From an uncultured Lachnospiraceae bacterium (GTDB lineage: Bacteria; Bacillota; Clostridia; Lachnospirales; Lachnospiraceae): DNA of 64,000 nucleotides. Shown piece by piece: positions 18,831 through 25,334 of the stretch (position 1 is its first letter; each line of letters opens with the position of its first letter). Below the pieces are notes generated by a model. It was not told where the DNA came from. It did not search any database and saw only the letters and a program-made list of their open reading frames with translations. The stretch is from contig CANQUC010000002.1 of the NCBI GenBank assembly GCA_947626945.1, forward strand, positions 62,001-126,000, read 5' to 3'. The translations under genes and the position numbers were made by a program.

Positions 18831-20246
18831 CTAATGAGACGTTTTGAGAGAGACGGTCTTTTCCGCCACGGTACAAAGCTGCCCGTTTACTTCGGCCTGA
18901 ACCTGAAAGCTTACCTCATCTGACAAAATACTCTCCTTTTTCAGATAGGCCATAAAACCGTAATCATCCACGCCCTCCTGTTCCTGACCGGAAATATAAA
19001 ATGTTTCATAGGTTATGGGCGCCTTTCCCTTCTCCGCCACAGTCAGATAGATGTTTCCGTTTTCCTGCCGGCAGGACTGCCCCAGAAATCCGGAAACCAC
19101 ATAATGCTCTTTTTCCTCCCTGACCGTAAGGCTGGTATCCGTATCCAACGTCCCGGCAGCCACAACGGAGGCCTGAGGAGGCTCCAGCACGGGAGCTTCT
19201 TCTATAAACCCGGACAGACGCCGTTCCACCCGTTCCAGTATCACCACGTCAGGCTTCAGCCGTTCCACATTTTCAAAACGATAGGGAACGATCCTTGTAA
19301 AATACGCCGTCTGAAAATCCTCCGCAAAGAACGGCACAAGAGATTCCCCAAAAGAATCCCGGAACATCATCAGAGAGTTTTTTCCCGCCGGTGAAAAGGT
19401 CTGGATCCAGTTGTCCATATTATCTTTCACATCATTCATATATTCCCACTGCCATTCTTTCTGAAAGATCTCATTTTCTTCCAGACGGCTGTTTAAGGGA
19501 TATACCATGCGCGTAAGATCTCCCAGATGGTCTTTTTTTACCTCATAAGGCACCGTGTGGAAGTAATCTACAGGTACTACGGGAACCTGCTCCATCAGCG
19601 TCTGATACACAAGGGCCGCCCCGCGGTTTGTCCAGTGAGAATCCGTCTTGAAATACAGCACTTCCTCATTATTTTCAAAGGCCTGATAAAGGTTTACATA
19701 ATGTATTCCCGCTTCTGTAAGCATGGGCTCCAGTCGCCGGTAATTGTTTTCTTCCGTTCCCTTTCGATAATAATAAGGCATGCCCTGATCATACAGCGCG
19801 TTTTTATTGGGCGCTATGGTAAACAAAAACCTGCTTCCCCGCGCCTCTGTATAATCCTGCATGAGCTTGATATTGTGCACAAGATTAAACAATCCTCTGG
19901 GTGACATCAGATGCTCCGCCGTATAATCATTCAGCGTACCTGTATAATACATCCAGCCGTCCCTGCCAAGAAGCACTTCATCTGTGACAGACGCTCCGAA
20001 CAGCTTGCCGTATATGGCCGCGTTGGCGGAAACCATCTGCTGTCTGAAAGCAAAATGATCATTAAAAAAAGATCCCAGATCGCTTAGATAATGTAGATTG
20101 GCTTTCCCGTCCTCCACAGGCTTGGGCAGACTGCTCAGCGTTTTATTTTCCGTTGTTTTTGTTGTCATTGCGAAAGACATGCCCAGAAAGGGCCCGATCA
20201 TACACAAAAGACAAACCGTCAAAAAGATTCCCTGTATTTTTTTCAT
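18831..20246 (-). CDS. DHHW/AlgX-like SGNH-fold protein of an O-acetylation system
   Basis: Extracytoplasmic protein of 471 residues with an N-terminal signal or anchor (IFLTVCLLCMIGPFLGMSFAM, about 7-27). The AlgJ/AlgX/DltD-type fold is suggested by FNDHFAFRQQM, the D-x-H-W motif YFKTDSHWTNRGA (about 195-207) and the nucleophile motif MMFRDSFGESL (about 290). In alginate and related systems such proteins transfer acetyl groups exported by an MBOAT partner. The MBOAT gene lies 12 bases upstream in the same operon, which supports that role. The start ATG follows AAGGAG. The C-terminal 120 residues look like an added beta-rich domain. The glycan acceptor is unknown. Confidence 0.85.
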   Translation of the reverse strand: MKKIQGIFLTVCLLCMIGPFLGMSFAMTTKTTENKTLSSLPKPVEDGKANLHYLSDLGSFFNDHFAFRQQMVSANAAIYGKLFGASVTDEVLLGRDGWMYYTGTLNDYTAEHLMSPRGLFNLVHNIKLMQDYTEARGSRFLFTIAPNKNALYDQGMPYYYRKGTEENNYRRLEPMLTEAGIHYVNLYQAFENNEEVLYFKTDSHWTNRGAALVYQTLMEQVPVVPVDYFHTVPYEVKKDHLGDLTRMVYPLNSRLEENEIFQKEWQWEYMNDVKDNMDNWIQTFSPAGKNSLMMFRDSFGESLVPFFAEDFQTAYFTRIVPYRFENVERLKPDVVILERVERRLSGFIEEAPVLEPPQASVVAAGTLDTDTSLTVREEKEHYVVSGFLGQSCRQENGNIYLTVAEKGKAPITYETFYISGQEQEGVDDYGFMAYLKKESILSDEVSFQVQAEVNGQLCTVAEKTVSLKTSH

Positions 20247-20258
20247 TGCCCCAGCTCC

Positions 20259-21635
20259 TTAAAACCGGAAATAAATAAAAGGATTATAGCTTCCGCCGGA
20301 CAGGCTCAGCATACACAGGATCAGCAGGCCAAAGCTTACAGCGTAACCGGCAGCCGTTGCCGCCCGGCTCTCTGACCGAACCCGCCTGATCCACGGGACA
20401 GAACCAGCCACCGCCAGAAGAAACACAAAGAGAAATAAAGGTGTGCACTGTCTGACCGCAATATTCATGGAAGCCGCGTCAAACTGAAAACCGGCAAAAA
20501 GCTTTCCGATCATCCCAAGGCCATACAGAACATTGTCCGCCCGAAACATCACAAAACCCACGCTGACAACCAGCAGCGTATAAATATGGCCCAGCAGCTT
20601 CGGCAGCTTTCTGACAGGCACAACTTCCTCCAGAAGAAGGAACGCGCCGTGAAACAGTCCCCATATTACAAATGTCCAGTTGGCGCCATGCCAGAGCCCG
20701 GTGCAGAAAAAGACGACCAGCTTGTTGACGCAGGTACGCGCCTTTCCCTTTCTGTTTCCGCCCAGGGGAATGTAGAGATATTCCTTAAACCAGGTTGAAA
20801 GAGAAATGTGCCACTTTCTCCAAAAATCCTGAACAGATACGGCGGTGTAGGGATATTGGAAATTCTCCAGAAAGGAAAAGCCAAACATGCGCCCCATTCC
20901 GATTGCCATGTCGCTGTATCCGCTGAAGTCAAAATAAATCTGCATCATATAGGATGCGGCCCCAATCCACGCGGTAATGATGTTCACCTGTCCCAGCTTC
21001 AGGGCAAATATGGCGTCCGCGGCTGTGGCCATCACATTGGAGATCAGCACTTTTTTAGCCAAACCCAAAATAAATCTGCGAAGCCCCTCCGCCATCATGG
21101 ACAGATCTTTCTTTCGATGGGTAATCTGCCTGCTGATATCATGGTATTTTACAATGGGGCCGGCAATCAGCTGCGGGAAAAAGGATATGTACAGCAAAAT
21201 ATGGAAATAATTTTTCTGAGCTTCCGCTTTTCCCCGGTAGACGTCGATCACATAGGACAGCGCCTGAAATGTGTAAAAGGAAATCCCGATGGGCAGTCTG
21301 ATATCCGGTATCCGAAGGGACAATCCAAAAAGACCGTTTGCCGTTTCCACAAACATCCCCGCGTATTTGAAAACGCCAAGAAAGGCCAGATTGATCACAA
21401 CCGCGGCCGCCACCAGACCCTTTTTGGGCTTTGCTCCTACCAGTCTTCCCATTGCGTAATTAAAGACTGTACTTAAGAGAAGCAGCAAAATGTACACCGG
21501 TTCTCCATAAGCATAAAACAACAGACTGGCAATGATCAGCAGGGCGTTCTGCACAGAAACTGACGGGATCAGATAATAGAGCAAAAACGTTACCGGCAAA
21601 AAAACACAAACAAATTCTAATGAACTGAAAACCAT
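20259..21635 (-). CDS. MBOAT family O-acyltransferase (AlgI-like)
   Basis: Polytopic membrane protein of 458 residues, PatA/AlgI branch. It moves acetyl groups across the membrane for O-acetylation of a surface polysaccharide. The N-terminal MVFSSLEFVCVFLPV, the segment FFPQLIAGPIVKY, WRKWHISLSTWFKEYLYIPLGGNR and the catalytic histidine in CTGLWHGANWTFVIWG are all family hallmarks. The ATG at 21635 follows GTGGAG. It sits 12 bases upstream of the DHHW/AlgX-like gene, forming the standard two-gene acetylation pair. A hairpin separates it from the lipoprotein gene upstream. The polysaccharide it modifies is not encoded nearby. Confidence 0.93.
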   Translation of the reverse strand: MVFSSLEFVCVFLPVTFLLYYLIPSVSVQNALLIIASLLFYAYGEPVYILLLLLSTVFNYAMGRLVGAKPKKGLVAAAVVINLAFLGVFKYAGMFVETANGLFGLSLRIPDIRLPIGISFYTFQALSYVIDVYRGKAEAQKNYFHILLYISFFPQLIAGPIVKYHDISRQITHRKKDLSMMAEGLRRFILGLAKKVLISNVMATAADAIFALKLGQVNIITAWIGAASYMMQIYFDFSGYSDMAIGMGRMFGFSFLENFQYPYTAVSVQDFWRKWHISLSTWFKEYLYIPLGGNRKGKARTCVNKLVVFFCTGLWHGANWTFVIWGLFHGAFLLLEEVVPVRKLPKLLGHIYTLLVVSVGFVMFRADNVLYGLGMIGKLFAGFQFDAASMNIAVRQCTPLFLFVFLLAVAGSVPWIRRVRSESRAATAAGYAVSFGLLILCMLSLSGGSYNPFIYFRF

Positions 21636-21654
21636 AGTTTTTCTCCACAAAACA

Positions 21655-21676
21655 GGTGCCGCACCACTGCGGCACC
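21655..21676 (-). terminator. Hairpin after the lipoprotein gene
   Basis: Nine-base stem GGTGCCGCA / TGCGGCACC with a 4-base loop, followed on the minus strand by TGTTTTG. It is probably a partial terminator between the lipoprotein and the MBOAT gene. Confidence 0.65.
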
Positions 21677-21689
21677 CTCTGTTATTTGA

Positions 21690-22649
21690 TCAATACAGCA
21701 GACCCTCATCTCCGATACATTCTTCAGAGTCCTGATTCTGTGCTTCCTGGGCTGCCGCTTCCGCCTCTGCCTGACGCCGGGCCTCTTCCGCCTGGGCCGC
21801 TGCCTCTGCTTCCGCCTCTGCCCGGGCCGCTGCCTCCGCTTCCGCCTGAGCTTCCGCTTCTGCCTGGGCCGCCGCTTCTGCCTGAGCCGCCGCCTGCTGG
21901 GCCGCCGCCTCTGCCTGGGCCGCTGCCTCTGCCTGGGCCGCCGCTTCTGCCTGAGCCTCTGCCTGCTGGGCCGCCGCTTCTGCCTGAGCCGCCGCCTGCT
22001 GGGCCGCTGCCTGCTGAGCCGCCGTCTCCGCCTGAGCGGATGCCGCAAGGGAGGCTTCCGCCTCTTTTGTGCTTACTTCCTGATTGGAATCCACGTCCTT
22101 ATAGGTGATATAACTGATGGTATTTTCTGTAAAAATCTGCACTTCCTCCGTATTTCCAAAAGGAAATCCATGCAGAACGTTGACAGTGCCGTCTTCGTAG
22201 GTAATCTGAACATCATAGGCCATCGTAACAAGATTCTGATCCTGAGCGGGATCTGCCGTCTGAACTGCCTGGGCCGCTGCCTGCTGGGCCTTTTCCATCT
22301 GGATGTCCTCCTGGGTTCTCACGCAATAAAGGATCCTCTGTTCATCCGCCAGAAAAGAATCTCCCTGCGCAAGCATATTTTCCGGGAATGCAGCCTCACT
22401 GCCGGATTTAATAGAAATGCCGGTAATCCCTTTTTGTGTCTTGTTGACAATCTTGACCGCGTAAACATTTCCAATGGTCTTTAACGGTTCCTGATCTGAC
22501 TGCGCCGTCTGCTCTGTAACTGCCGGGCTTTCTTTCGGCGCCTCGGTTTTCACTGCGTCATCCGCGGATTTTTTTTCAGAACCGCAGCCCGCAAGGAGAC
22601 ATACGGTCAAAAGAACCATTCCCAAAAACGTCCACTTCTGTTTTTTCAT
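21690..22649 (-). CDS. Lipoprotein with long Ala/Glu/Gln repeat tail
   Basis: Secreted lipoprotein of 319 residues, family not recognised. The N-terminus MKKQKWTFLGMVLLTVCLLAGCGS is a lipoprotein signal with the cysteine at about 22. Residues about 55-185 look like a folded domain (IGNVYAVKIVNKTQKGITGI, then FPENMLAQGDSFLADEQRILYCV) resembling small bacterial domains that end in a predicted beta strand. From about residue 200 to 305 the protein is almost only Ala, Glu and Gln in AEAAAQ-type units, likely an extended helix, ending DSEECIGDEGLLY. The underlying DNA is a low-complexity repeat prone to length change. The neighbours are the Bsp/transglutaminase-like secreted protein upstream and the acetylation pair downstream. 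Function unknown. Confidence 0.85.
   Translation of the reverse strand: MKKQKWTFLGMVLLTVCLLAGCGSEKKSADDAVKTEAPKESPAVTEQTAQSDQEPLKTIGNVYAVKIVNKTQKGITGISIKSGSEAAFPENMLAQGDSFLADEQRILYCVRTQEDIQMEKAQQAAAQAVQTADPAQDQNLVTMAYDVQITYEDGTVNVLHGFPFGNTEEVQIFTENTISYITYKDVDSNQEVSTKEAEASLAASAQAETAAQQAAAQQAAAQAEAAAQQAEAQAEAAAQAEAAAQAEAAAQQAAAQAEAAAQAEAEAQAEAEAAARAEAEAEAAAQAEEARRQAEAEAAAQEAQNQDSEECIGDEGLLY
21742..22053 (-). repeat. Degenerate tandem repeat encoding the Ala/Glu/Gln tail
   Basis: About 310 bases of GC-rich units of 6 to 21 bases (reading gccgccgcttctgcctgag on the plus strand) inside the lipoprotein gene. Units differ slightly, mostly at third positions, so the tract is old but still recombinogenic. 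Confidence 0.85.
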
Positions 22650-22682
22650 CCTGTTATCCCTCTTTCATTTGATCTGCTCTCA

Positions 22683-22738
22683 GAATTTTTACATAAACCT
22701 TCATGTTCTCGGATGATCCTGCTTCTATGTAAAAATTC
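22683..22738 (-). terminator. Hairpin after the Bsp-repeat gene
   Basis: A 13-base perfect stem GAATTTTTACATA / TATGTAAAAATTC (22683-22695 and 22726-22738) directly after the stop codon of the upstream gene. It is AT-rich and followed only by a short weak T stretch, so termination may be partial. Confidence 0.55.
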
Positions 22739-22740
22739 CG

Positions 22741-25228
22741 TCAGTAAACACGTCCGTAATTGGCATAACGCCATGTGCCTGACTTGCCGTAATATATCAT
22801 ATATCCATCTCTGCCTGTCTCGTTTGTAAAGTTCGGATCAAACAGATATGGATATCCGTCTATCACGATTTCCGTCCAGCCATGAGGATTCAATCCGCCA
22901 TGTACATTGCGCACATACCCTTCCACCATGTAAACTTCATATCCCAATTCTCTTGCCATCCAGTAGAAAGTTGCCGCCATCACATAACAGTTTCCTTTCC
23001 CGTTTTGATAGCCGTATTGTCCGTAATGAACCGTATGAGACTCACCGCTGTCCGGCTTTGGAGTGGGACGGTAATAGGTCAGGCCCGCTGACCACTGGAA
23101 CGCCGCTCGAAGATCCCATCCTATCTGGTTTAAAATCTCACGCGCCCTGCGCCGCACATAGGGCATCTCAATACTGACCGTGATCTCCGTGCCCGTGATA
23201 AACCGGCTCGATGAACCTGCAAAACCATAGACATGGATCTCATAAACCCCGGTTTCATAATAATGAGACGCCAGATCGATCCGGGCGCTCCATGATCCGT
23301 CGCTGTTTCTTGTGGCGCTGTGCCAGTTCAGATCGTCCTGACCGTTCTTGACTGTCCACACGGGAATCTTTACTTCCGATTCATTTCTGCCAAGATTCGC
23401 GTCAAGCACCTTTACCGTCAGGATCCCGTTCTTGCTGTCCACTGATGTCAGCATCTTTGGCTTGGTATGATCCACCCGCACATTGTGCGTTGTTCCCGTG
23501 CTCATATAACTGTTGTTTCCATGATCCGTCACATACACATGGATATCATAGGTTCCCTCTTCATACTGATGGACCGCCGTGTTCACATCCGCGTACCAGT
23601 TGTTTCCATTTTTTGAGGCGTTCAGCCAGGTCAGATCATCCTGGCCGTTTGCCCGGCTCCATACTGCCACCCGAACGCTTTTGACTGTTCCCGGCAGCGT
23701 TAGGTTCGTAATGTTCACCCGGAAAGAACCTGTGTCGGTATTGGTCACCGCCGCGCTTACCTTTGCTCCGGTTCTCCCTACATCCACTCCCGTACCGCTT
23801 ACATATCGTGATCCTGTCGGGGTGTCCGCGTAGGCATGAATAAAATAAGATCCCGTCCCTTTGTGGGACGTCATGGGCACCGTGTACCGGTAGACTCCGT
23901 CCTGGCCCCTTGCGGCCTGATACCATTTCAGATCGTCCTGACCGCTTTCGCTGCTCCATACCGCAAACCGGATACCGGTTACATTTCTTCCGGCATTCAT
24001 CCCGGTCAGGGCAACTGTTATGGTTCCCGCCGACGGATTCCATGAGCCGTTCATTTTCGGCTTTGCCTTCACTTTTACGTTCTGGGACATTCCGGCGCTC
24101 ATGTAGCTGTTATTTCCTTTGTCTGTTATGTAAATATGAATGTCATAGATTCCTTCATCATATATGTGATCCCCGGTGTTTACATCCGCGTACCACGTCG
24201 TTCCGTTTCTTGCCGCGGTGATCCATGTCAGGTCATCCTGTCCTTTTGTCCGGCTCCACACCGCCGCCCTTATTTCCTTTACCGTCTCCGGCAATGTTAC
24301 GTTCGTTATATTTACCCGGAAAGAACCTGTATCGGCGTTGGTCACCGTGGCGCTCACCTTCGCGGCAGTTTTCTGCACGCTCACGCCGGTACCATTTACA
24401 TACTGGGATTTGTTTTTTGAATCGGAATAGGCATGAATATAATAAAGCCCTGTTCCTTTATGAGATGTGAGGGGTACTGTACATCTGTAGATTCCGCCCT
24501 GGTTCTTTACAGCCCCATACCATTTCAGGTCATCCTGACCGTTCTCACTGCTCCATACCGCAAACCGGACCGCTGTGACATCTCTTCCCCCGTAGTAATC
24601 TGAGAGCATCACATCCAGCGTGCCCGCCGACGGATTCCAGGTACCCGTCATCTTTGTTTTTGTGCGGTCAACTGTCACCCTATGGGAAAAGCATCCGATA
24701 CATTCTCCGTTATTGCTGCTGTCATAGGCATAAAAATGAACGTTATAAACCCCTTCGTCGTACTGATGCAGTCCGGTGTCCACGTCCGCGTACCATTGGC
24801 CTCCGCTTTCCTTTGCGTCGATCCAGGTCAGATCGTCCTGACCATTGACATCACTCCACACAGCTGCCCGGACCTTGTTCATTTCCGGAGAAAGTTCAAT
24901 CCCGGAGAGACTGGCACGGAAAGATCCGCTCAGGCTGTCATAAACTGAGGCCTCCGCGCTGCTGTAAAAAACAGCCTGCCTGACAAAGTCCGTTTCCTCC
25001 GGTTCCGATGTGATCAAAGAGAACTCTGATACGTCTTCCTCAGTTTCCGGCTGGTCTGTTTCATTCCACCCCCCCCCGGGTTTCTGACAGACCTTCTGTT
25101 TCACCGGTCTGCTCTGACAGGACCGGATCGTCTTGCGCCGCCGCATAACCTGGCTGCAGAAAGCCTTCCGTGATCATAAATACGATCATGATTACCGAAA
25201 ACAGCCTGCAGGATAATTTCCTTTTCAA
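22741..25228 (-). CDS. Secreted Bsp-like repeat protein with transglutaminase-like domain, frame broken at a G9 tract
   Basis: Cell-surface or secreted protein, about 828 residues if read through. The probable start is TTG at 25228 after AGGGTGAT, giving a signal peptide KLSCRLFSVIMIVFMITEGF with an AAA-type cleavage site. About 20 residues after that site a run of nine Gs (plus-strand Cs 25069-25077) shifts the frame. In the present sequence the first frame stops at 25061-25063, and removing one G joins it to the long frame. The body has six GBS Bsp-like repeats recognisable by the phrase NGQDDLTW or GQDDLKW, alternating YADVNTG..YDEG and YRCTVPLTSHKGTG types. The C-terminal transglutaminase/protease-like domain shows Cys in GNCYVMAA, His in NPHGWTEI and Asp in LFDPNF. 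It may cross-link or cleave surface polymers. The tract suggests phase variation or a sequencing error. Confidence 0.82.
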
Positions 25229-25257
25229 ACTATCACCCTTTCTTACATCATTAAACA

Positions 25258-25282: not shown

Positions 25283-25334
25283 CGCTTTAAATTATATTTT
25301 AACATATTTACAGCCAAATCACAAGAACGAAACA

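Follow-up and report, generated by a model that had tools for sequence, protein, structure and literature searches.

A minus-strand gene in the window (the whole 64,000-nucleotide stretch of DNA analysed, from a gut-type Lachnospiraceae genome) is split over two reading frames joined at nine consecutive guanines. The earlier note had proposed that this break is a phase-variation switch in a secreted, surface-exposed protein with Bsp repeats and a transglutaminase-like domain. The locus thus raises the question of whether the tract toggles the gene by changes in DNA length, or is better explained by a miscounted homopolymer, by gene loss or by slippage during expression.

Frames and predicted product of the split gene

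The sequence and its frames confirmed the two-frame layout, with the junction at the G9 tract (Table 1), where the plus strand carries nine consecutive C. The 5' frame opens with TTG at 25228 and begins with the leader LKRKLSCRLFSVIMIVFMITEGFLQPGYAAAQ, read from the sequence as a typical signal peptide, which bears out the secreted nature of the product. The tract lies about 20 residues past the likely cleavage site, and a TGA at 25061, directly 3' of it, closes the frame. The body frame is also open 5' of the tract up to an ATG at 25146, giving 801 codons with a weak SD and without the signal peptide. Frame arithmetic confirmed the 828 residues given earlier for the restored protein; one such protein needs a changed frame at the tract, that is, an altered tract length. 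The TTG is a weak start, which counts against the reading as a switch.

Table 1. Features of the split gene, its surroundings and related sites. Numerical positions refer to the window.
Feature	Position	Strand	Basis or remark
Promoter-like TTGTGA-17-TAAAAT with TG extension	25296..25324	-	Such sites in the region occur at chance level
SD-like AAGGGTG preceding TTG	25234..25240	-	Read from sequence
5' frame, TTG start and signal peptide LKRKLSCRLFSVIMIVFMITEGFLQPGYAAAQ..., 55 codons as assembled	25061..25228	-	Sequence
G9 tract, candidate slippage site; gene out of frame (OFF) as assembled	25069..25077	-	Sequence
Body frame, 772 codons, stop-free, paralogue-like throughout	22741..25059	-	Frames, Pfam, paralogue alignment
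Six GBS_Bsp-like repeats (PF08481), limits approximate	23150..24960	-	Pfam, E 9e-125, six stretches
Transglutaminase-like core (PF01841)	22849..23103	-	Pfam, E 1.7e-7, above gathering score
Lipoprotein gene next in order, Ala/Glu/Gln-rich repeats	21690..22649	-	Sequence
29 poly-G/TATAAT promoter-like sites	L116-L144		In 23 Lachnospiraceae-family genomes

The six-repeat, transglutaminase-like body described previously was recovered by Pfam. The PF08481 match scored 407 bits against a gathering score of 31.6, and PF01841 scored 32 bits against a cut-off of 23. The C-terminal domain is a predicted transglutaminase-like core with a Cys-His-Asp triad, the residues being kept in the motifs GNCY, HGW and FDP. 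When sequences of solved structures were searched, this domain had no more than weak matches (GdmF, E 0.006). The surface exposure claimed in the earlier note is a prediction from the signal peptide and the Bsp-like repeats; an LPXTG anchor was not found in the protein. The product is probably wall-associated.

An intact paralogue 32 kb away aligns along the length of the body with 57% identity and has the transglutaminase-core Cys, His and Asp in common with it; the G tract is absent from the paralogue. This absence, and the failure to find an orthologue with the tract at the deoC locus of two congeners, speak against a switch. Pairwise dN/dS between the two is near 0.19, with dS near saturation. 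Given the alignment with an intact paralogue, the shared triad and this ratio, the protein shows no visible decay, and the tract is its single lesion. The sequence search returned many streptococcal relatives of the Bsp-repeat protein, and the search of genome contigs (one genome per species) yielded no relative above ~35% identity. The streptococcal GBS Bsp-like proteins belong to the same repeat family (PF08481); unlike them, the protein studied here has a C-terminal transglutaminase-like domain, and identity is only ~30%. An exact search of viral contigs with the flanks of the tract gave no match.

The gene belongs to a four-gene block (window 18831-25228) encoding the Bsp/transglutaminase protein, the lipoprotein, an MBOAT acyltransferase and an AlgX/DHHW-like protein, a make-up that suggests polysaccharide O-acetylation. 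Neither congener has the Bsp gene at its deoC locus: the block is missing between deoC and a SpoIID-like gene in one (G002) and does not lie 3' of deoC in the other (G001). The block is therefore regarded as accessory surface equipment, which is a usual setting for contingency genes.

Long G/C runs in the genome

Pattern searches over the 2.07-Mb genome put the number of G/C runs at 99 for an exact length of 6, 4 for 7, 0 for 8 and 1 each for 9 and 10. Only two runs thus exceed 7 nucleotides, the G9 tract of the Bsp gene and a single G10. Extrapolation of the drop from 6 to 7 predicts ~0.01 or fewer runs of at least 9, so that the G9 tract is longer than the trend of run lengths in this genome would predict. 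Judged by base composition alone, G9 would not be rare, since a dinucleotide shuffle expects ~6 overlapping G8 matches per window; the genome strongly avoids long G/C runs.

Both exceptions occupy classic switch positions. The G9 tract stands early in the coding sequence of a gene for a secreted protein, where a one-unit change would alter expression. The G10 (G000:C1:151270-151279; locus L106, 1502-1511), which lies beside an HTH regulator gene, fills the -35/-10 spacer of a TTGATT-15-TATAAT promoter ahead of an ABC-transporter gene. The orthologous promoter in congener G001 (L110) has G9 and a spacer of 14; its core is kept and its flanks have diverged, and the two ABC transporters are ~75% identical. 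An inverted repeat, GGGGGTATA...TATACCCCC, overlaps the G10 promoter tract in G000.

Poly-G tracts in related genomes

Among 397 genomes of the same family, the pattern GGGGGGGGTATAAT had 29 matches, compared with 1 for the reversed control. Most carried TTGACA, TTGACT or TTGACG 14-20 nt 5' of TATAAT, tract lengths ranged from G8 to G13, and many products of the genes 3' of the matches have an N-terminal leader of signal-peptide or lipoprotein type. When a TTGACW -35 was required, 1 match was found in 398 genomes sampled phylum-wide versus 16 among the family matches, the latter counted by eye among the 29. A general promoter-like excess around all G9+ tracts was also considered and set aside as weak (14/99 versus 5/101 in the control). 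The promoter signal resides in exact TATAAT sites, not in G9+ tracts generally, and most G9+ tracts of relatives lie outside promoter spacers and are not clearly in 5' coding positions, which counts against the switch.

Coding tracts resembling that of the Bsp gene were found at inspected loci. In Lachnospiraceae other than this genome, G8-G10 immediately follow lipoprotein signal peptides. Genomes G014 and G015 carry G9-G10 soon after signal peptides, with the frame open at L179, L210 and L211 and broken at L207. Genome G143 (L244, L262, L265) has three paralogous lipoprotein leaders, MKKKLLA(L/V)TAVAAAMALSAC, followed by G8, G9 and G8, and their frames match the tract lengths: open, broken and open, respectively. 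Read from sequence, these leaders are the nearest to the proposed states seen side by side, as paralogues of another genus. The lipobox-plus-G8 pattern had 24 matches against 12 in the reversed control, but sites other than lipoproteins and a few very long G runs of artefactual origin are among the matches, so only inspected loci were used. Runs of G15-G52 were seen at L224, L234 and L248, two of them at contig ends; these are probably Illumina poly-G artefacts and call for caution in automated tract surveys.

Whether Lachnospiraceae, a dominant family of the gut, carry widespread, undescribed poly-G switches in promoter spacers and, in genes for lipoproteins and surface proteins, right after the signal peptide, with the Bsp gene one of two in this genome, we consider evenly balanced. 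Slipped-strand switching is an already known kind of mechanism, and its spread through the family is the more interesting result. In the open-licence papers searched, nothing on point was found for slipped-strand phase variation in Lachnospiraceae, and such spread appears undescribed in that literature. If true, a clonal Lachnospiraceae population would be a mixture in which cells differ in their transporters and surface proteins, and this would come about with neither recombinases nor invertible promoters. Such mixtures could influence encounters with host immunity, phages and glycans, and switching would be readable from existing deep metagenomes through tract-length counts.

Proposed switch, rival explanations and neighbouring genes

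We favour the reading of the Bsp gene as a translational contingency locus toggled by DNA slippage at the G9 tract, with a probability of roughly 0.7. It is favoured by the rarity of long runs, the G10 promoter tract, the promoter and coding tracts found across the family and the intact body. DNA polymerase would slip during replication at the G tract just past the signal peptide and change its length. In the OFF state, as assembled, translation from TTG would stop right past the tract; in the ON state it would run on into the Bsp-repeat/transglutaminase body. Exporting and non-exporting cells would then coexist within a clonal population. That the tract slips, that an ON subpopulation exists, that the protein sits at the surface and that switching brings a benefit are all points that we infer. 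The switch proposed in the earlier note is accordingly upheld in part: the frame break and the tract stand, genome-wide and family-wide evidence favours slippage, and the gene would be placed among phase-variable loci by its anatomy.

Neisseria, Campylobacter and Helicobacter have poly-G/poly-C contingency genes with the tract in the 5' coding part or the -35/-10 spacer and with surface-related targets. The homopolymer positions are alike here, and the target is likewise predicted to be surface-related; in contrast, those organisms are Gram-negatives with many loci, and this genome has just two long tracts. An experimental precedent from a gut commensal is Bifidobacterium breve UCC2003, whose sortase-pilus genes bbr_0113 and bbr_1889 undergo G-tract slippage, with variation demonstrated both in mice and in culture (PMC9187656). 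Both are gut Gram-positives in which a G tract lies inside the gene of a surface protein, a predicted one in the present case, and tract length joins or splits two frames. The B. breve case is an experimentally proven actinobacterial pilus operon with ~G9-G12, whereas the Lachnospiraceae gene is known from its sequence.

The same work cautions that the G-tract length on record need not be the one that truly prevails (PMC9187656), and the OFF state of the assembly accordingly calls for a guarded reading. An assembly or sequencing miscount, with the true genome in frame and constant, is nevertheless unlikely. Illumina sequencing has difficulty in sizing G tracts, and the locus is known from a single assembly of 54 contigs; on the other side, so long a tract is itself the exception in this genome and would be prone to slippage whatever its exact length. 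It also lies mid-contig (C2:87069-87077 of 126,970), away from contig edges, and no comparable split of a gene was noticed at the ~50 A/T runs of 7-8 nt that the window holds, most of which fall inside long open frames.

Recent loss of function, in which a fixed frameshift marks a gene on its way out, would suit an accessory gene that both congeners lack at deoC and that has an intact paralogue nearby. We hold it to be improbable, as the single lesion falls at the one slippage-prone site and all 772 codons of the body are intact, its catalytic triad included. Slightly less probable still is programmed slippage in expression, whereby slips of RNA polymerase or the ribosome on G9 would always yield some full-length protein. 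A G9 tract could plausibly be slippery, and transcriptional slippage is discussed beside replication slippage in the bifidobacterial work (PMC9187656); this explanation leaves the promoter-spacer tracts unaccounted for, as only DNA length counts there, and similar loci whose G8 or G10 leaves the frame open do not call for it.

If the gene is switched by replication slippage, early termination in the OFF state may also lower expression of the co-directional lipoprotein gene by polarity, as the two genes are possibly co-transcribed. A terminator-like hairpin lies 3' of the lipoprotein gene (21677-21654). The Ala/Glu/Gln-rich tail of the lipoprotein is encoded by degenerate tandem repeats with periods of 18, 33 and 69 nt (window 21761-22037). 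Between the stop of the body and the lipoprotein gene, a perfect 13-bp inverted repeat, GAATTTTTACATA / TATGTAAAAATTC, encloses a 30-nt loop (window 22683-22738).
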